Positions 40,044 to 47,660 of a DNA stretch of 64,000 bases are shown here, piece after piece. Source of the stretch: Desulfobacteraceae bacterium Eth-SRB1 (GTDB lineage: Bacteria; Desulfobacterota; Desulfobacteria; Desulfobacterales; ETH-SRB1); contig RPGP01000029.1 in assembly GCA_004193555.1 (NCBI GenBank), forward strand, positions 452,976 to 516,975, read 5' to 3'. Under the pieces are notes generated by a model. That model was not told the DNA's origin, did not search any database, and worked only from the letters and a program-made list of their open reading frames with translations. Each line of letters begins with the position of its first letter. Position 1 is the first letter of the stretch. Made by a program: the position numbers and the translations under genes.

Positions 40044-40607
40044 CTACGAGGCTGTTGGGTTTTGAACGTACAGGATTGATTGCGCACTCATTTTTTTCAG
40101 TATATCCTTACCTTCGTCTTGAGCCCGTTGCCTGAGCACTTCTTTTTCTCCGAAACTGATGGCGTCGGTCATGCATGTCTCAACGCAGACAGGGATTCCT
40201 CCTGCGTGGATCAGGTCAAAGCAAAGATCGCATTTGTGCGCATAATTTTCCTGCTTATTGAATTGAATAACACTGTATGGGCATGCCTCGATACAGTCCT
40301 TTTCGCCGGCGCATTTTTCTTTGTTAATGCGCACAATACCGGTGTCTGGATCCTTGGTAATTGCATCTGCCTTACAGGCTTTTATACATGGCGCATTTTT
40401 ACAATGCTGGCAGGGCATAACCCAGGAGTTAACGGATATTTCAGGATAAACTCCTTCCCGCTTGGATTCCACGCGCAGATAAAACGGAATTTCGTTCGGC
40501 AAGGCCGCTTCATAGTCCACAAGACCGTGAAAATTTCGACAGGCCACAATACATGTTTTGCAGCCGATACATCGCGAAAGATCTATCATTAAACTTAATT
40601 GTTTCAT
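40044..40607 (-). CDS. Four-cluster Fe-S electron-transfer subunit of molybdoenzyme
   Basis: 187 residues from ATG 40607 (AAAGGAG upstream); a longer ORF start is not preferred. DmsB/PhsB/NrfC-type ferredoxin with four [4Fe-4S] motifs: CIGCKTCIVACR, CQHCKNAPCIKACK, CAGEKDCIEACPY and CDLCFDLIHAGGIPVCVETC. No signal peptide. It transfers electrons to or from the catalytic subunit encoded 11 bases upstream. Confidence 0.92.
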   Translation of the reverse strand: MKQLSLMIDLSRCIGCKTCIVACRNFHGLVDYEAALPNEIPFYLRVESKREGVYPEISVNSWVMPCQHCKNAPCIKACKADAITKDPDTGIVRINKEKCAGEKDCIEACPYSVIQFNKQENYAHKCDLCFDLIHAGGIPVCVETCMTDAISFGEKEVLRQRAQDEGKDILKKMSAQSILYVQNPTAS

Positions 40608-40618
40608 GGTTTTCTCCT

Positions 40619-42754
40619 TTATTTTTCGATTCGAACGCGTGTGGAGACATGGGACTCGCCCCCCACAACGTCCTGCCAATCGAGAGTGCTTCCGGAATCC
40701 GGTATCAGGATATTATCGCTCACGCCTTGACCCATAGTTGCAGTTCTCCCGACAGTTGAGCCAAAACCGTGAACTAGTCCAACGCAATCTGGCCTGATAC
40801 GTTCGGTCAATTTTGCCTTGCATTTGATTTGGCCTGTGCGTGAGGACATGGTAACATTATCTCCGTCCTTTATATTCAGCTTCGTGGCTGCGGATTTGTT
40901 AATAAGCACAGGGTTTTCAAAAAAACCGCTTACTGTGTCTCGGAGTTGCGGGTTATTGTGGGTCCATTGGCCGGCACCAGCATGGAAAATAGTACGGTAT
41001 GAAATAAGAATAAACGGATATTTGTCAATGTTTACTTCGTATTCCGGGGCCAAGCCGGGCCGTGGCATGGCTTGGTTAACGCCCTCAAGGTCTTCCCAGT
41101 ACAAATGCAGTTTTCCGCTCGGTGTTCCAAAGCCGCCGTTCTTTTCGTATTTCCTGAACCCCATAGTACGGGGCGACCATAATCCGCCCATGTCTTGAAG
41201 CTTTTTTACTGACAGACCAAGGCCGGCAAGCTGGATGTCGTAGTATTCCACATCGTCTTTGAACGTAAAATATTCCGGGACGAGCCTTTTGCCCAGCTCG
41301 ATGAATATTTCGTTTGAATGACGACACTTTCCAGGCGCTTCAACTACTGGCTGGCGAAGGAGTACACCTTTTCCGAAATTATACCACCATGGCATGTATA
41401 AGAGCTCCCAGCGCTCAAAATACGATTTGTCCGGCAGAACAAGATCGGCATATTTAGATGTTTCTGAAAGCATGATCTCATAACTGACAAGAAGTTCGAG
41501 CTTGTATTCGTCATTGTCATCGACCATACACACTGCATCACGCCACTCCTTATGTCCCATCTCGGTCAAGGCTGGATTAGCTTCTGAATTAATCAGAACT
41601 TTCAGATCGCCGTTTTTAATAGCCTGTGCCTGGTACCAGGTCGGCTCCATGATAAAGGAATAGTTGCTGAAACTCTCCTTATCCTTTCCTGTGCGATGCC
41701 ACCCAAGTTCATTTAAATCAGGCCCAACCGGTACAGGTTCTACCGGTGTCATTGGGGTCAAATCCGGCAAAGGCTGACCACCAGGATTGTCAATATTTCC
41801 TGTCACGGCCAGGAAAATTGTCCACGCGTGGCCAAAGTCCAGGGCCTGGCCAAGCATGATTCCTTTAAAGCTATCCACCCCTACTGAAGGAGCTTTAGCG
41901 CATTCAGTAGCCAGCTTTTTGATGTCCGCGGCAGGGACGTCGCAAATTTTACTCATAGCCTCAGGGGTTTTATCCTCAATATAATTTTTAAGCTTGTTAA
42001 AGTCTCCTTCTCGGACCCATTTATCTATAAATTTTTTGTTGTATAAATCGTTGGCGATAATATGCTGGATCATGCCCAGGAAAAAAGCCGTGTCCCCAGC
42101 GGGCTTGATGGGAATCCACCAGTCGGCCTTGGCCGCATCCGCGGTAAAGATCGGATCCAGTACAACCAGCTTAGCGCCCCTTGCCTTAGCGTCCAAAATA
42201 TGCCCCGGGGCAGACGCGTCATCCAGCCCGCCAAAGGCATGGCGACCGGACATAATCATGATTCCGTCTTTGGGAACGGTGAACCATGCTGGTGGGATAT
42301 GGTGGTTTGGCACACCGCCCATGGTCTTGATGCAGGCAACAATCTTGCCCGAATCGCAGTGTGGGAGGGCCGTATTGATAAAACCGCCGTAAGCATCCAA
42401 AAATCGCCACTTAGGATCGGTGATGGAGTGCGGAAAAAAATTGGCCGTCAGCTTATGCGCTTCGCCCCGATCTTTAAGTGATTTCAATTTATCCGTGATG
42501 ATGTTCAGGGCTTCGTCCCAGGATATGGGTTCAAATTTTCCCTCACCGCGCTTACCTGTTCGTTTCAGTGGCCGGGTCAGGCGGTCCTTATCGTATTCAA
42601 GAGAAATACCGGCCATACCCTTGACGCATGCCTTGCCTCGCGCCTTTGGGTTGCCTCTGATCTCCTTGATGCATCCGTCCTCCAGCCGCACCAGGATGGC
42701 GCATTCTGCTTTGCACTGGTAACAAACTGTTGGTATCCACCCATTTTTTTTCAT
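40619..42754 (-). CDS. Molybdopterin oxidoreductase, DMSO-reductase superfamily (PsrA/PhsA-like)
   Basis: 711 residues from ATG 42754 (GGAGG upstream). The N-terminal [4Fe-4S] motif C11-x2-C14-x3-C18-x24-C43 is intact, followed by the Mo/W-bis-PGD domains (DPIFTADAAKADWWIPIKPA, LINSEANPALTEMG, ADLVLPDKSYFERWELL) and the C-terminal beta domain (GDNVTMSSRTGQIKCKAKLT). The probable metal-ligand region is LPHCDSGKIVACIKTMGG. No Tat signal is present, so it is predicted to be cytosolic, unlike periplasmic polysulfide or thiosulfate reductases. The substrate is unknown. It forms an operon with the FNT channel, a 46-residue membrane protein and the Fe-S subunit. Confidence 0.9.
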   Translation of the reverse strand: MKKNGWIPTVCYQCKAECAILVRLEDGCIKEIRGNPKARGKACVKGMAGISLEYDKDRLTRPLKRTGKRGEGKFEPISWDEALNIITDKLKSLKDRGEAHKLTANFFPHSITDPKWRFLDAYGGFINTALPHCDSGKIVACIKTMGGVPNHHIPPAWFTVPKDGIMIMSGRHAFGGLDDASAPGHILDAKARGAKLVVLDPIFTADAAKADWWIPIKPAGDTAFFLGMIQHIIANDLYNKKFIDKWVREGDFNKLKNYIEDKTPEAMSKICDVPAADIKKLATECAKAPSVGVDSFKGIMLGQALDFGHAWTIFLAVTGNIDNPGGQPLPDLTPMTPVEPVPVGPDLNELGWHRTGKDKESFSNYSFIMEPTWYQAQAIKNGDLKVLINSEANPALTEMGHKEWRDAVCMVDDNDEYKLELLVSYEIMLSETSKYADLVLPDKSYFERWELLYMPWWYNFGKGVLLRQPVVEAPGKCRHSNEIFIELGKRLVPEYFTFKDDVEYYDIQLAGLGLSVKKLQDMGGLWSPRTMGFRKYEKNGGFGTPSGKLHLYWEDLEGVNQAMPRPGLAPEYEVNIDKYPFILISYRTIFHAGAGQWTHNNPQLRDTVSGFFENPVLINKSAATKLNIKDGDNVTMSSRTGQIKCKAKLTERIRPDCVGLVHGFGSTVGRTATMGQGVSDNILIPDSGSTLDWQDVVGGESHVSTRVRIEK

Positions 42755-42974: not shown

Positions 42975-43856
42975 TTAAAGTTTGATCATAAACTCTTTTT
43001 TGTTTTTGTAAAGACTGGCTACCCTTTTTGGATTGGAAACCAATTGAAAAATAACGCCCACAAAGAAAATTCCTCCGATGAAATTCCCAAGTACGGTGTA
43101 AATCTGATTATGTGCCCACCCGTACTGACCGAACCCCCAGTGGATGATGACAGGAGCGTGGTTTATAATTTTGCCTGCAACCTTGAGGTAAAGGTCCTGC
43201 TGAAATAAAGGCACGGCCAAAAAACCTATGTTTGCTATACAGTGCTCGGTCATTCCGGCTACAAAGGCAAAGGGGCCGTAGGCGGCCATGAATATTTTGG
43301 AAACATCGTCATCGGCCTTGACAAACAAAAATGCGGCTGTTTGAAGTGTCCATGTGCAAATGATGGCCATGACGAAAATTTGCGTAGCTGTTTCCCCTGT
43401 TTTTGCCACCCCGATAGCATGAGCATGCACAAGCCAGGGCAGAGCATGGTACCCTCCGCCCTTACTTAATAACCACATAAAAAACATGCTGCCTATAAAA
43501 TTCCCCGCGTATGCTACAATAATTTCCCAAACAAATTGCATCCATGTAATGCGTTTGTGGAAAACGCCGATGACGCCATAGCCCATATCTGCAGTGACCA
43601 GAGTCATGCCGCTAAACATGATGATTACAAGGGAGAATGCGAAAACAAGCCCCATGAGCAGATTAGCGAACCCTACGGCCATGTTTTCCGGGACCCCTGC
43701 GCTGACCGAAAGGGCAAGCATTGCCCCAAAGCTGACAAACGCGCCGCCGGCGAATGCGGACAAAAAAAACGCAAGCGGCCTGTTCTTCAGCATATCCCAT
43801 TTATAGGCACAGACATCCGCTACTCTGACTACAAGTTCGTCAACACTGGCAGGCAT
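42975..43856 (-). CDS. Formate/nitrite transporter (FNT/FocA family) channel
   Basis: 293 residues with six spans. FNT features: an N-terminal amphipathic segment, FFLSAFAGGAFVSFGAMLAL, the omega-loop region (LVTADMGYGVIGVFHKRITW), WEIIVAYAGNFIGSMFFMWL and the central-His repeat EHCIANIGFLAVPL. Family members pass formate, nitrite or hydrosulfide. First gene of the operon, with AAGGAA before the ATG. The sigma-solute-binding fusion gene lies upstream on the same strand. Confidence 0.93.
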   Translation of the reverse strand: MPASVDELVVRVADVCAYKWDMLKNRPLAFFLSAFAGGAFVSFGAMLALSVSAGVPENMAVGFANLLMGLVFAFSLVIIMFSGMTLVTADMGYGVIGVFHKRITWMQFVWEIIVAYAGNFIGSMFFMWLLSKGGGYHALPWLVHAHAIGVAKTGETATQIFVMAIICTWTLQTAAFLFVKADDDVSKIFMAAYGPFAFVAGMTEHCIANIGFLAVPLFQQDLYLKVAGKIINHAPVIIHWGFGQYGWAHNQIYTVLGNFIGGIFFVGVIFQLVSNPKRVASLYKNKKEFMIKL

Positions 43857-43940
43857 TTATCGATTCCTTTATGCTTTCGGTTCGTATCGTAGATTTCGGC
43901 CTTGTTTTAAATTATATTCAAAGGCCCTTTGTAAATATAG

Positions 43941-43965
43941 AGACCTTGTTCGGGAAAAAGGTTCG
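43941..43965 (-). promoter_or_regulatory. Candidate ECF-sigma promoter of the FNT-molybdoenzyme operon
   Basis: On the minus strand ACCGAACCTTTTTCCCGAAC is followed by AAGGTCTC. CGAAC (43965-43961) and GGTCT (43945-43941), 15 bases apart, resemble the GGAAC / CGTC pattern of ECF promoters. CCGAAC occurs twice, 13 bases apart. The leader would be about 80 bases. The match is weak and there is no second copy in front of the sigma gene. Confidence 0.25.
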
Positions 43966-44000: not shown

Positions 44001-44162
44001 TTAGGGCTCGCTCAAAAATAACTTTACATTTTAAGCGCCGATGCATCCCGCTTGGCTGCGTTGCGAAAGCTCGGAATATGCCTGATATTCCTGCGCTTTC
44101 GCGCCTTGCCGGCCGGGCGCCTCAACACTTAAAATTGCGAACTTATTTTTGAGCGAACCCTT
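44001..44162. repeat. Family D inverted-repeat element, long copy
   Basis: Ends TTAGGGCTCGCTCAAAAATA and TTATTTTTGAGCGAACCC, with inner pairing TTTACATTTTAAG/CTTAAAATTGCGAA and a GC-rich core containing GCTGCGTTGCGAAAGC and GCGCTTTCGCGCC. A short copy is at 57269-57314. It separates the sigma gene from the FNT operon. The rest of the 43857-44190 gap holds the operon leader. Confidence 0.8.
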
Positions 44163-44190
44163 AACCCGGGAAAAATCAGTAGAGTGGCGT

Positions 44191-45585
44191 TTATAAATAA
44201 TTCGTGGACATAAAACTATTCAGGTCACATTCTTTATCGAGTATTTTCGCCTGCAGCGCAAGGGTCATGGATGCCTCGATCCTGTTTCGATCCGGTGCGA
44301 GGTCATGGTAAGTAATGTATCCTTTCCGCAGGACGCCTTCAGCGATGTCGGATGTGATGCCGGTATAACGAGCCTGAATTTTCGCGCTTGCCGCCGGGTG
44401 CTCGGCAATATATTCGCCGGCAGACAAGAGAAGTCTGAGATAGCTGAATAAAAGATCGCCGTGTTTAGCGGAAAAATCCTCCCGCGCCGCGACCACACAA
44501 CAAATGTGGCCTGGATAAAGGTCCTTGGAGCGTACCAGTATTCTGCCTTTCCCCTCGGCAACGGATTTTGTGCCCCAGGGCTCAGAGCAGAAAAATCCAT
44601 CAATTTCCTGTTTCATTAATGAGCCGATGACGTATGAAGGGCTGATATATTTTGCGCGGATGTCTCGGGATGCGCTGAATGGATCGGAGCCGAACAGAGA
44701 ATGCAAAATCATTTGGTGGGTTGAAACAGAGTAAGGCAATCCCATCAGCGCTCCGGCGAGAGAATTTTTGGAGGTTATATGCTTTCGAACTGTAATGGCG
44801 CTTCCGTCGTGATGGCCGTCTAAAACGTACTGGATCCGAATACCGCTGTTTCTCAGAAACATGGCCAGAGGAGCCATAATAAATGCCGCGTCCACGATAC
44901 CGTTTATTAAAGATTTGACCAGACTGGGCCATGACAAAAACTTATGAAGCTGTATTTGGAAATTTTGATTATCATGGCGGTGATGAGAAATCATGGCCAG
45001 CAAGTGGTCTGAGATAGGTAAATATCCGACACTGATGATCCGTTGCCCGCTTTTTTTGAATTCATGTATTATTTTGTCGCGCGCGTCATGCAACCGCCTT
45101 TTAACCGTGCCCAAAGGCACGTTCAAGTCGTTAGCTATGTCTTTATATGAACGCCCGTAAACATACCGCTGAGTACACACCTCACGGTTGATATCCGAAA
45201 GCGAGGCTAAGAATTTTATTACCCTGTCTCTGCTCATGCAACGTGTGCAAATTTCCAATGGGCTGAATGCGTCGGTCGATGTAGGCGCGATCTGGTCTAA
45301 GCTGAGCATGGACTTGTACGGAGCGTTTAACTTAAGTGTCCTATTACAGCATGAATGAAGAATTGTGCGAAACCATGCAGGAAAAGAGGAAAGATCCCGC
45401 AAAGTCGAAAGCTTTAGATATGCCTTTAAAAATGCTTCTTGTACCGTATCCTGAGCAAGACCAGCATCGGGAATTCGCTTTGACGCAATATTGTAAGCCA
45501 TGTTTTGAAAACGCTTTACAATCTCGTTGAAGGCATTTTTATTCCCATTGAGAGTCTTTTTGAGAAACGACTGGTAATCTTTCAT
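44191..45585 (-). CDS. ECF-type sigma factor fused to a NrtA/NasS-like solute-binding domain
   Basis: 464 residues from ATG 45585; TTG 45612 and GTG 45603 are possible. Residues ~17-82 are sigma region 2 (AFNEIVKRFQNMAYNIA, GLAQDTVQEAFLKAYLKL, FPAWFRTILHSCCNR) and ~125-178 region 4 (LASLSDINREVCTQRYVYG, SYKDIANDLNVPLGTVKRRL). From ~182 to the end the protein resembles cytosolic or periplasmic oxyanion-binding proteins NrtA/CmpA/NasS: VGYLPISDHLLAM, GIVDAAFIMAPLAMFL, GSAITVRKHI, then IDGFFCSEPWGTKSVAEGKG. No signal peptide or membrane span, so the binding domain sits in the cytosol. No separate anti-sigma gene is nearby. The adjacent FNT-molybdoenzyme operon is the obvious target. The ligand is unknown; nitrate, nitrite, formate or bicarbonate are candidates by relation. 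Confidence 0.88.
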   Translation of the reverse strand: MKDYQSFLKKTLNGNKNAFNEIVKRFQNMAYNIASKRIPDAGLAQDTVQEAFLKAYLKLSTLRDLSSFPAWFRTILHSCCNRTLKLNAPYKSMLSLDQIAPTSTDAFSPLEICTRCMSRDRVIKFLASLSDINREVCTQRYVYGRSYKDIANDLNVPLGTVKRRLHDARDKIIHEFKKSGQRIISVGYLPISDHLLAMISHHRHDNQNFQIQLHKFLSWPSLVKSLINGIVDAAFIMAPLAMFLRNSGIRIQYVLDGHHDGSAITVRKHITSKNSLAGALMGLPYSVSTHQMILHSLFGSDPFSASRDIRAKYISPSYVIGSLMKQEIDGFFCSEPWGTKSVAEGKGRILVRSKDLYPGHICCVVAAREDFSAKHGDLLFSYLRLLLSAGEYIAEHPAASAKIQARYTGITSDIAEGVLRKGYITYHDLAPDRNRIEASMTLALQAKILDKECDLNSFMSTNYL

Positions 45586-46335: not shown

Positions 46336-46475
46336 CCAATAAATGCAGAACGTCTAAGCTCATCTGGCGACAACACTGCGGAACAAGGCTTTCGGAAACA
46401 CAAACTTGGATGCGGCGCACGGCCTTTCAAGGAGCGCCGAGCTGTTAGCGGTCAGATAGCGCCTTGTTCGGCATT
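46336..46475. repeat. Imperfect palindrome after brnTA (attC-like?)
   Basis: GGAACAAGGCTTTCGG (46378) and GCGCCTTGTTCGGC (46461) are complementary, as are TAAGCTCATCTGGCG (46353) and GGAGCGCCGAGCTGTTAG (46430). The ~140-base structure directly follows, and slightly overlaps, the 3' end of brnA, as an integron cassette attC would. The exact R'/R'' core bases do not fit well. Confidence 0.4.
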
Positions 46476-46694
46476 TCCAGGATGCCACTTCATGTGTAGT
46501 TTTCGGTGATGAACCGCGCAGTCACGAAGATAAAGATTGATCAGGTTCTGATAGGGAACACCTGTTTCCTCCGCCATGGACTTGAAATAGGAAACGGTGT
46601 CACGGTCCAGCCGCATAGTTACCGGTTGTTTTAGATACTTGATGTAAGGATTTTTACGCCCTTTCATTTTGGAGAAATCGTAATGCTCTTTCAT
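46452..46694 (-). CDS. brnA: BrnA-type antitoxin
   Basis: 80 residues. The BrnA/CopG-like C-terminal ribbon-helix-helix is seen in PVTMRLDRDTVSYFKSMAEE, then TGVPYQNLINLYLRDCA. It neutralises BrnT and represses the pair. ATG 46694 overlaps the brnT stop by 4 bases, the reverse of the common antitoxin-first order and characteristic of brnT-brnA. Confidence 0.88.
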   Translation of the reverse strand: MKEHYDFSKMKGRKNPYIKYLKQPVTMRLDRDTVSYFKSMAEETGVPYQNLINLYLRDCAVHHRKLHMKWHPGNAEQGAI

Positions 46695-46984
46695 CGTCTA
46701 TGCCTCCAATAATCATTTTCTTCATCTCCATCCGCCTTCCTGGCCGATATAATTCTAACGACCGTCTCACTTTTTCGGAAACAGTGGCAGACGACGAGAA
46801 TCCGAAGTTTAAAACTCATTCCAAGTAGGATGAAACGGTCTTCATCTTCTGAATGGTCGGGGTCGAAAAATTGTATGGCATTCTCATCGTAAAAGACCGT
46901 GCACGCGTCATCGAAAGAAATGCCATGCTTTTTGATATTAGCCTTTTTCTTCCGACCATCCCATTCAAATCGTAACTCATTCAT
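46691..46984 (-). CDS. brnT: BrnT-type ribonuclease toxin
   Basis: 97 residues. BrnT signature: LRFEWDGRKKKANIKKHGIS with FDDACTVFYDENA, then DRFILLGMSF, LRILVVCHCFR and VVRIISARKAD. A RelE-fold mRNA interferase of type II toxin-antitoxin modules. First gene of brnTA. The module looks intact, unlike the neighbouring antitoxin-nuclease remnant. Confidence 0.92.
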   Translation of the reverse strand: MNELRFEWDGRKKKANIKKHGISFDDACTVFYDENAIQFFDPDHSEDEDRFILLGMSFKLRILVVCHCFRKSETVVRIISARKADGDEENDYWRHRR

Positions 46985-47267
46985 ATGTACATTGTACTTA
47001 TAATAGCGTGTAAGTCAAGATGATATTTTAAATCTCGTATAAGAACTGATTTACAAATGGATGCCCCCAAACTTACACGCCATCTCCTATTTCAAGTTTG
47101 AATGATATCAACAAATTTATTGGTATTTTACCTTTTTTTTGCATTTATTTGATAATACTTGTAAAAAAGTAAAAGAAAAGTTATCTTGCAATTGTATTAG
47201 TAAGTATAAGGTCAAGATTAAAAAACCAATAAGGGAGACCTTTGAAAAATATAAGGAGGGATTTAAT

Positions 47268-47660
47268 ATGAAAAAAATGATTTTTATAAGCCTTGCAATC
47301 TTACTTCTTTGTCCGGTTATGGTCAATGCTGCCGATCTGAAAAAAATGAAAGTTGCAGTTGCGGCCGATAGTAAAACTGCAAAAGCATCTGTAAGCGATA
47401 TGGCTGCTAAATGTCCTTATTATCATATCTTTAATAACAAAGGGGAATTGATTGAGGTTATCGATAACCCTTACAGGGATACAACTGGTGGCGCAGGGCC
47501 TTTAGCGGCAAAATTCCTTGCCCAAAAGGACATAGATATCATAGTTGCAGAATCATTTGGTTCCAAAATGATTGATGCGCTGAGAAATAGCGGCAAAACT
47601 CATTTTGAATTTAAAGGCGGTGTTGATGATGCAATAAAAAGAGTTTTAAAGCTAAATTGA
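47268..47660 (+). CDS. Secreted NifX/NifB-fold (dinitrogenase cofactor-type) protein
   Basis: 130 residues from ATG 47268 (AAGGAGGG upstream). A signal peptide is clear: MKKMIFISLAILLLCPVMVN ending A-A. The mature part is a NifX/NifB-C fold: LKKMKVAVAADSKTAKASVS, then CPYYHIFNNKGELIEVIDNP, TTGGAGPLAAKFLAQKDIDI and IVAESFGSKMIDALRNSGKT. Cytosolic members carry Fe-Mo-type cofactors or metal clusters; a periplasmic version suggests metal handling or sensing outside the cytosol. It precedes an ABC/LolA-like envelope operon by about 100 bases and might belong to it. Confidence 0.85.
   Translation: MKKMIFISLAILLLCPVMVNAADLKKMKVAVAADSKTAKASVSDMAAKCPYYHIFNNKGELIEVIDNPYRDTTGGAGPLAAKFLAQKDIDIIVAESFGSKMIDALRNSGKTHFEFKGGVDDAIKRVLKLN

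Follow-up and report, generated by a model that had tools for sequence, protein, structure and literature searches.

The Locus and the Fusion Gene

The DNA analyzed here is a stretch of 64,000 nucleotides from the genome of Desulfobacteraceae bacterium Eth-SRB1, referred to below as the window. On its minus strand, a detail absent from the original prediction on this DNA, the window carries at 44191..45585 a gene for a protein of 464 amino acids in which an ECF sigma factor is fused to a solute-binding-protein domain, as judged from the open reading frame, Pfam and homologous fusions in other genomes. The frame starts with an ATG at 45585 and its stop codon ends at 44191; an alternative start (TTG) lies 27 nt upstream. 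The fusion is a single copy in its own genome.

Three domains are arranged along the protein. Pfam places sigma region 2 at residues 23-84 (45334..45519, minus strand; PF04542 Sigma70_r2, E 2.1e-9) and sigma region 4 at residues 126-172 (45070..45210, minus strand; PF04545 Sigma70_r4, E 1.8e-10). After a linker of about 10 residues comes an NMT1_2/NrtA-like solute-binding domain occupying residues 181-464 (44194..45045, minus strand), which is delimited by structure matches together with a match to NMT1_2 (PF13379) over residues 181-402 (E 3.5e-26). All three Pfam matches exceed their curated cut-offs, in agreement with the prediction that sigma regions 2 and 4 and a solute-binding domain share one open reading frame. 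The presence of regions 2 and 4 and the absence of region 3 from the Pfam matches are the layout of an ECF sigma factor, and the NCBIfam model sigma70-ECF scores 70.1 bits, above its cut-off of 42.9; the NCBIfam model SsuA_fam spans residues 184-463 with 81.5 bits, below its own cut-off of 163.5. A full-length alignment of 35 loci agrees that an extra C-terminal domain follows sigma-4, and this is not an extension of the SnoaL-like (ECF41) type, for which no Pfam match was found in the fusion at E up to 1.

Since the protein begins with its sigma domain, it has no signal peptide for export. Over 19 residues, its hydropathy peaks at 1.93, at residue 226 within the binding domain; the five values ranking next among the 35 fusions are 1.55-1.75, and an FNT channel taken as a control reaches 2.45; therefore, no clear membrane span is present. 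Both absences had been foreseen from the sequence of the window.

Two further features lie upstream of or near the fusion gene. A BrnT/BrnA-type toxin-antitoxin pair (PF04365, PF14384/PF12441) is encoded upstream of it at 46452-46984 on the minus strand, and a small NifX-type protein (Nitro_FeMo-Co, 8.5e-13), with an export signal apparent by eye, at 47139-47657 on the plus strand.

Distribution of the Fusion

Is the fusion a genuine gene? The genome of the window is a 52-contig draft, in which an assembly chimera or a frameshift might have merged two genes. We regard the probability of such an event as negligible, as full-length fusions 34-50% identical to that of the window are found in 32 other genomes, five of them on single-contig genomes. 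These homologs, together with one on a contig of a viral collection, refute an assembly artefact; the survey proposed along with the original prediction has thus recovered the same fusion elsewhere, and the sequencing error named there as a possible refutation fails.

The 35 loci compared throughout comprise 33 from the 32 other genomes, one from the viral-collection contig and the window itself. Near-copies by branch length (L066/L067 and L077/L106) were kept in the counts, whereas a fragment at a contig start (in genome G495) was left out; loci L003-L009 were taken to be the same as seven of the contigs behind L060-L072 and were counted once. The viral-collection contig (L106/L136; IMGVR_UViG_2503754016_000001) carries a fusion and a molybdoenzyme nearly identical to those of a bacterial genome (G568), and is probably host DNA misfiled as viral.

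Three sets of genomes were screened for the fusion. Of 58 relatives, the window's own genome among them, 2 yielded it; of 395 genomes sampled across the phylum, 4; and of 347 in the order to which genome G267 belongs, 32, one of these being the fragment of G495. In this order the molybdoenzyme described below occurs in 37 genomes, 31 of which have both. The record titles of named fusion-bearing contigs read Pseudodesulfovibrio, Desulfovibrio, Desulfovibrionaceae and Proteobacteria. Within the 58-relative search, the window's own family is represented by 17 genomes, and only that of the window was seen to have the fusion, which suggests that the gene was laterally gained; another member of the family (G005) has the molybdoenzyme without the fusion.

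Fold and Conserved Residues of the Binding Domain

The structure of the whole fusion was predicted with AlphaFold at moderate confidence (pLDDT 71), and that of the binding domain alone with pLDDT 74 and pTM 0.78. Using the whole-protein model, Foldseek found a protein of Staphylococcus aureus, 3un6, at 3.1e-13, as well as TauA, the CmpC regulatory domain, SsuA, NrtA and CmpA; it also matched the sigma factors AlgU and SigW over about 175 columns. The binding-domain model was aligned by VIA-align with Z scores of 24.7 to 3un6, 20.5 to CmpA, 20.1 to the CmpC regulatory domain and 19.5 to NrtA. A profile of nine binding domains searched against the PDB gave 1.3e-37 for 3un6, values near 1e-17 to 1e-18 for the CmpC/NrtC regulatory domains, 5e-11 for TauA and 1e-4 for NrtA. 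These models indicate that residues 181-464 adopt the two-lobed NMT1/NrtA fold, and the structural match on which the original prediction had staked itself is found. Its assignment of the domain to the NrtA/CmpA/NasS group stands as far as the fold goes, with CmpA and NrtA among the matches, and needs amendment in that the nearest solved structure is 3un6, followed by the CmpC/NrtC domain.

Conservation is concentrated in this domain: 45 positions are invariant in the 35 loci, 9 in residues 1-180 and 36 in residues 181-464, where the N-terminal count is lowered by rows that miss the first residues and the contrast persists beyond residue 44. Invariant in 35/35 fusions are D193, H194, W219, H258, H259, G261, S262, S288, T289, H290, C333, P336, W337, H360, C362 and C363, of which D193, H194, W219, H258, H259, S288, T289, H290, H360, C362 and C363 are of a pocket type. 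Such a distribution bears on the reading that the binding-like domain has lost small-ligand binding and acts as an inhibitory or protein-interaction domain moved by a protein or a protease. This reading has precedents, as the extensions of ECF41 and IutY are described as fused anti-sigma parts, that of IutY being released by proteolysis, in the available portions of two reviews (PMC3426412, PMC8999054). The excess of invariant residues in the binding domain over the sigma part argues against it, as does the lack of any conserved partner protein noticed in the gene neighborhoods inspected, where the channel, molybdoenzyme and Fe-S genes described below were the only conserved neighbors seen; we hold it to be improbable.

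How does the pocket compare with those of its relatives? An alignment was made of ten fusions, 3un6 and 16 relatives of periplasmic, cytoplasmic and response-regulator-fused types. Much of the residue signature of the binding domain is common to the fusions and the relatives aligned. Position 259, however, holds H in the sigma fusions, as in 3un6, and R or K in 16/16 relatives, and position 333 is C in the sigma fusions and V in 16/16 relatives and 3un6. The two substitutions imply, at the level of sequence, that the pocket of the sigma fusions differs from those of the relatives, and perhaps that the ligand has changed too.

The nature of these residues raises the alternative that the C-terminal domain gates the sigma factor as a sensor of a metal (zinc or a soft metal) or of a thiol or redox signal (sulfide or polysulfide) rather than of an anion. 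H194, H258, H259, H290, C333, H360, C362 and C363 are all invariant in 35/35 fusions, C333 is specific to the sigma fusions in the alignment above, and the entry for 3un6 is titled "with zinc bound." On the other hand, H290, H360 and the CC pair are present in 14/16 of the relatives aligned and are not special to the sigma fusions. The genes next to the fusion, considered in the following section, bear on this alternative from both sides.

The Adjacent Operon

Downstream of the fusion gene on the same strand lie three genes of a putative target operon. The first encodes an FNT-family channel (formate/nitrite transporter; 42975..43856, minus strand; PF01226, 9.4e-47), for which TIGR00790 is below its cut-off and the best PDB match is NirC (4fc4). 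The second encodes a cytoplasmic PsrA/PhsA-like molybdopterin oxidoreductase (40619..42754, minus strand) with an N-terminal 4Fe-4S motif, an active-site Cys133 in the stretch LPHCDSGK and no signal peptide seen by eye; its nearest relative is PsrA (1.4e-62). The third encodes a DmsB/HydN-like electron-transfer protein with multiple 4Fe-4S clusters (40044..40607, minus strand).

The active-site stretch LPHCDS[AG]K of the molybdoenzyme is invariant in 42/42 readable rows (one of 43 is gapped there), and so is Cys133-Asp134. In formate dehydrogenases, the catalytic Cys or Sec is followed by His. The Cys-Asp pair in place of Cys/Sec-His argues against the operon enzyme being a formate dehydrogenase, and this assignment is disfavored.

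The gene set is conserved. A channel gene lies downstream on the same strand in 35/35 loci, and the molybdoenzyme and Fe-S genes in 34/35, the one locus without them (L084) being one where the contig ends first. That the fusion sits upstream of a channel-molybdoenzyme operon, as noticed in the window, is therefore a general property of these loci. The channel itself is of two unrelated kinds, FNT in 13 loci and HPP in 22, two examples of the latter being checked against Pfam (PF04982); the two were found together in no fetched stretch (tblastn, E 1e-10). It precedes the enzyme gene in 13/13 FNT and 8 HPP loci and follows the Fe-S gene in 13 HPP loci, while L084 cannot be placed. The tree of the 35 fusions calls for at least three switches between FNT and HPP. 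This repeated replacement implies that the sensor follows an anion function and not one protein family.

FNT and HPP are known as transporters of anions, not of metals (PMC7438415), which speaks against a metal or thiol sensor. The PsrA/PhsA-like character of the enzyme counts in favor of that alternative, and taking the conserved residues and the operon together we rate it as unlikely, though the most serious competitor to an anion sensor.

Some operons are extended. A two-part protein of FmdE and MoCF_biosynth is added at the ends of FNT-type operons in three loci (L064, L065 and L068), and one of 552 aa lies at the end of an FNT-type operon at L007:13388-15043; it is perhaps a cofactor-insertion helper for the molybdoenzyme.

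A Predicted Promoter Element Shared by the Fusion Loci

The gap between the fusion gene and the operon contains a shared element, roughly (G/C)(G/C)(T/G)AAC(T/C)TTTT(T)C followed by CTCT or CTC. In the window, it constitutes a predicted target promoter at 43939..43964 on the minus strand, with -35 GAACCTTTTTC and -10 region GTCTCT. This site, about 80 nt before the FNT gene (G000:C29:496914-496939 in genome coordinates), is the single match to a tight promoter pattern in the 3.34 Mb genome, with 0 matches to the reversed control. Between it and the fusion gene lies a palindromic repeat element of about 160 bp (44002..44163, no strand assigned), which is MITE/REP-like, with 33-nt inverted arms that are 82% complementary. 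It has 33 matches in its own genome, some of them the same place on both strands, and 17, the window copy included, are near full length at ≥85% identity.

A strict pattern is matched in 27/35 loci, compared with a mean of 0.06 and a maximum of 1 of 35 in 200 dinucleotide shuffles, and a total of 34 strict matches occur on both strands of the 992 kb made up by these loci and the window. A relaxed pattern is matched in 34/35 loci; in the remaining one (L059), the -35 part is present and the -10 part is not clear. The offset from AAC to CTC/CTCT is 21 nt in 28/34 loci. An AAC-T-rich block followed by CTC/CTCT is seen in 35 loci, with the -10 of L059 unclear and with the patterns themselves built on this block; they were written after the sequences had been viewed and require AAC, so that the constancy of AAC among the matches is built in. 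AAC in the -35 element is described as an ECF signature in the available part of a review (PMC3426412).

The element accompanies the fusion. Nine loci have the molybdoenzyme without the fusion, and in the eight of these sister operons whose upstream region is readable, the element was found in 0/8 before the enzyme gene or the first operon gene. Fisher's test of element against fusion gives 9e-5 for the strict pattern and 6e-8 for the relaxed one, both uncorrected for kinship. A tree of 42 enzymes shows six changes of the fusion label; L126 is left out of this tree and of the promoter count since its contig ends inside the gene, and L084 is not on the tree, having no enzyme. Five independent contrasts on well-supported branches of the enzyme tree have the element accompanying the fusion in 5/5 (sign test, p 0.0625). 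The argument from co-loss is weakened by the position of the promoter next to the fusion gene, where one deletion can remove both.

ECF sigma factors typically activate their own genes through the same type of promoter. This was not seen in the fusion loci: when up to 350 nt preceding the fusion gene were examined, 0/35 loci matched the strict pattern and 2/35 the relaxed one, the latter looking like chance hits. No autoregulation by such a promoter type is thus visible. Judging from these upstream sequences, a different promoter probably drives the fusion gene and control would probably act on the finished protein, as would suit a one-component sensor. The same observation can be read in another way, in which the sigma factor is active as soon as it is produced and regulation lies in the transcription of its gene, with the C-terminal domain storing or buffering a substrate or being a catalytic relic. 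Another promoter must then drive the fusion gene, as the missing autoregulatory motif would have it, and the fold family of the binding domain does include enzymes such as Thi5 and MqnA/D. However, an invariant pocket would be needless in an unregulated fusion, and inspection of L003-L009 by eye brought up no regulator gene conserved upstream; we consider a sigma factor without ligand control very improbable.

The tight pattern was also searched for in 22 genomes, 18 with the fusion and 4 with the enzyme only. Four genomes gave 5 sites in all: 4 of these sites are at the operon promoter, and the fifth lies at another place, in G627, where no clear target was seen by eye in the ORF list; the reversed control gave 1 match, in G755. 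Since 14 of the 18 fusion genomes escaped detection with this pattern, the absence of further sites shows little.

One additional locus (L125; G607:C1:1540500-1555000) contains a second copy of the molybdoenzyme, Fe-S and FmdE genes without the fusion, the channel or the promoter element, and adjoins IS3-type transposase genes, as judged by eye.

A Proposed Model for Ligand-Gated Transcription

The wiring originally proposed, a self-contained sigma factor for the adjacent operon, is well supported by the gene set of the 35 loci, the promoter element and the 0/8 sister operons. We consider it quite likely that the fusion protein is a dedicated, autonomous one-component ligand-gated ECF sigma factor for the channel-molybdoenzyme operon next to it. 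An outline of the process would be as follows: the pair of sigma-2 and sigma-4 would recognize a single promoter lying just downstream of the fusion gene, from which the channel (FNT or HPP), the cytoplasmic Mo/W enzyme and the Fe-S protein would be expressed. The clamshell at the C-terminus, held to sigma region 4 by a very short tether, would sit in the cytoplasm and bind a small molecule, probably the same anion that the channel and the enzyme handle. Without ligand, the clamshell would be expected to hold sigma-4 or sigma-2 inactive, and its closing on the ligand would release the sigma factor, by analogy with the release of NasT from the NrtA-like NasS by nitrate. That the ligand opens the sigma factor, as originally suggested, is plausible in view of the fold and the NasS precedent.

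What might the ligand be? Nitrite transport is discussed for both HPP and FNT in PMC7438415, citing Maeda 2014, and nitrite is therefore the obvious shared substrate. On account of the FNT/HPP exchange together with the NasS precedent, nitrite or nitrate leads the candidates, at somewhat below an even chance; a sulfur oxyanion or some other compound is a possibility to be taken seriously, and formate or bicarbonate a rather doubtful one.

The distribution of NrfA gives no support for nitrite. NrfA (PF02335, E 1e-30 or better) is present in 212 of the 347 genomes of the order of G267 and is not enriched with the fusion (18/32 fusion genomes as compared with 194/315 others, genomes outside the match list being counted as lacking it). 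Among the fusion genomes, it occurs in 1/11 with the FNT-type channel and 16/20 with the HPP type, as well as in G495, where the channel was not seen; this split is confounded by kinship and may reflect either kinship or physiology.

Binding-protein genes related to that of the fusion are found in other surroundings. At L094:6504-9424 and in L095, such a gene with a twin-arginine-like start abuts a gene for a CooS-like CO dehydrogenase, identified by PF03063 (2e-145) in L094 and by like gene order in L095, and both neighborhoods also carry ABC permease and ATPase genes. At L096:3903-6848 and in L092, a related binding protein and an ABC permease are encoded beside a Mrp/Nuo-type membrane subunit, identified as Proton_antipo_M by Pfam in L096 and by eye in L092. 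The CO dehydrogenase and Proton_antipo_M neighbors are hints of C1 or inorganic-carbon ligands in the related branch.

Comparison with Known Systems

Sensing by most ECF sigma factors depends on a partner anti-sigma protein. Fused regulatory domains are nevertheless an accepted kind, according to the available portions of two reviews (PMC3426412, PMC8999054), and the fusion resembles ECF sigma factors with a regulatory C-terminal extension in having a core of sigma-2 and sigma-4 with a fused C-terminal domain in place of an anti-sigma factor. The extensions named in those portions are SnoaL-like, Cys-rich, TPR, WD40, YCII, zinc anti-sigma and membrane types, one of the membrane type carrying a periplasmic carbohydrate-binding domain, whereas the extension in the window is a full solute-binding clamshell of about 280 residues. 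No solute-binding extension is named there ("nmt1" gives 0 matches), in texts that leave the extensions of many groups undescribed, and no published fusion of a sigma factor with an NMT1 or solute-binding domain was found in the literature searched, outside which lies the main ECF classification (Casas-Pastor 2021).

The use of a binding-type protein as a sensor for transcription control has a parallel. NasS is an NrtA-like protein. The NasS-NasT complex dissociates on nitrate or nitrite with apparent constants of 15 and 94 μM, respectively, according to the available part of the report that describes NasS in this sensor role (PMC3795266). NasS is a separate protein that acts on an RNA-binding antiterminator, whereas the domain in the window is fused to a sigma factor.

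Fused NrtA-like domains are also known outside transcription. The regulatory domain of CmpC/NrtC is cytoplasmic and is part of an ABC ATPase subunit. This C-terminal domain (9uak, 9uai, 8wm7) is likewise NrtA-like and is the second-best PDB relative by profile (3e-18), but its fusion partner is an ABC ATPase rather than a protein of transcription. Among solved structures the closest is 3un6 of S. aureus, which shares HH[DE]G, STH, EP and CC with the fusion and differs in being an ABC import component and in lacking D193/H194, C333 and H360; its gene may lie near a formate dehydrogenase gene.

Also comparable are proteins of the window's phylum in which a domain of the same subfamily is joined to a REC domain, some with CheW or SpoIIE: REC-NMT1_2-CheW at L098:3386-5302, REC-NMT1_2 at L102:7247-8620 and REC-NMT1_2-SpoIIE at L105:6396-8801. 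The REC proteins of L098 and L102 lie next to a separate binding protein in which no signal peptide is obvious. Like the fusion, the REC-NMT1_2 proteins are of a signaling type and have no signal peptide; their output is of the chemotaxis or phosphatase type and not a sigma factor, and they have R/K at 259 and V at 333. By their domain composition, they are a second use of the NMT1_2 domain in signaling. It seems fairly probable that the sigma factor is gated directly by a small molecule through its fused clamshell and serves one promoter, and that it comes from a wider cytoplasmic NMT1_2 signaling branch with sigma, REC, REC-CheW and REC-SpoIIE versions.

If this is true, a very versatile bacterial ligand-binding scaffold has been fused straight to a sigma factor and tied to one well-defined promoter, which would make a tractable system for how ligand closure can gate a sigma factor. 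It would also offer a route to naming the substrate of the channel-molybdoenzyme operon in bacteria of the sulfate-reducing type, and possibly an orthogonal ligand-controlled pair of sigma factor and promoter for synthetic biology. Compared with the systems above, what would be new here is a solute-binding domain in the role of a fused regulator on a sigma factor, backed by an unusually clean case of promoter and operon.
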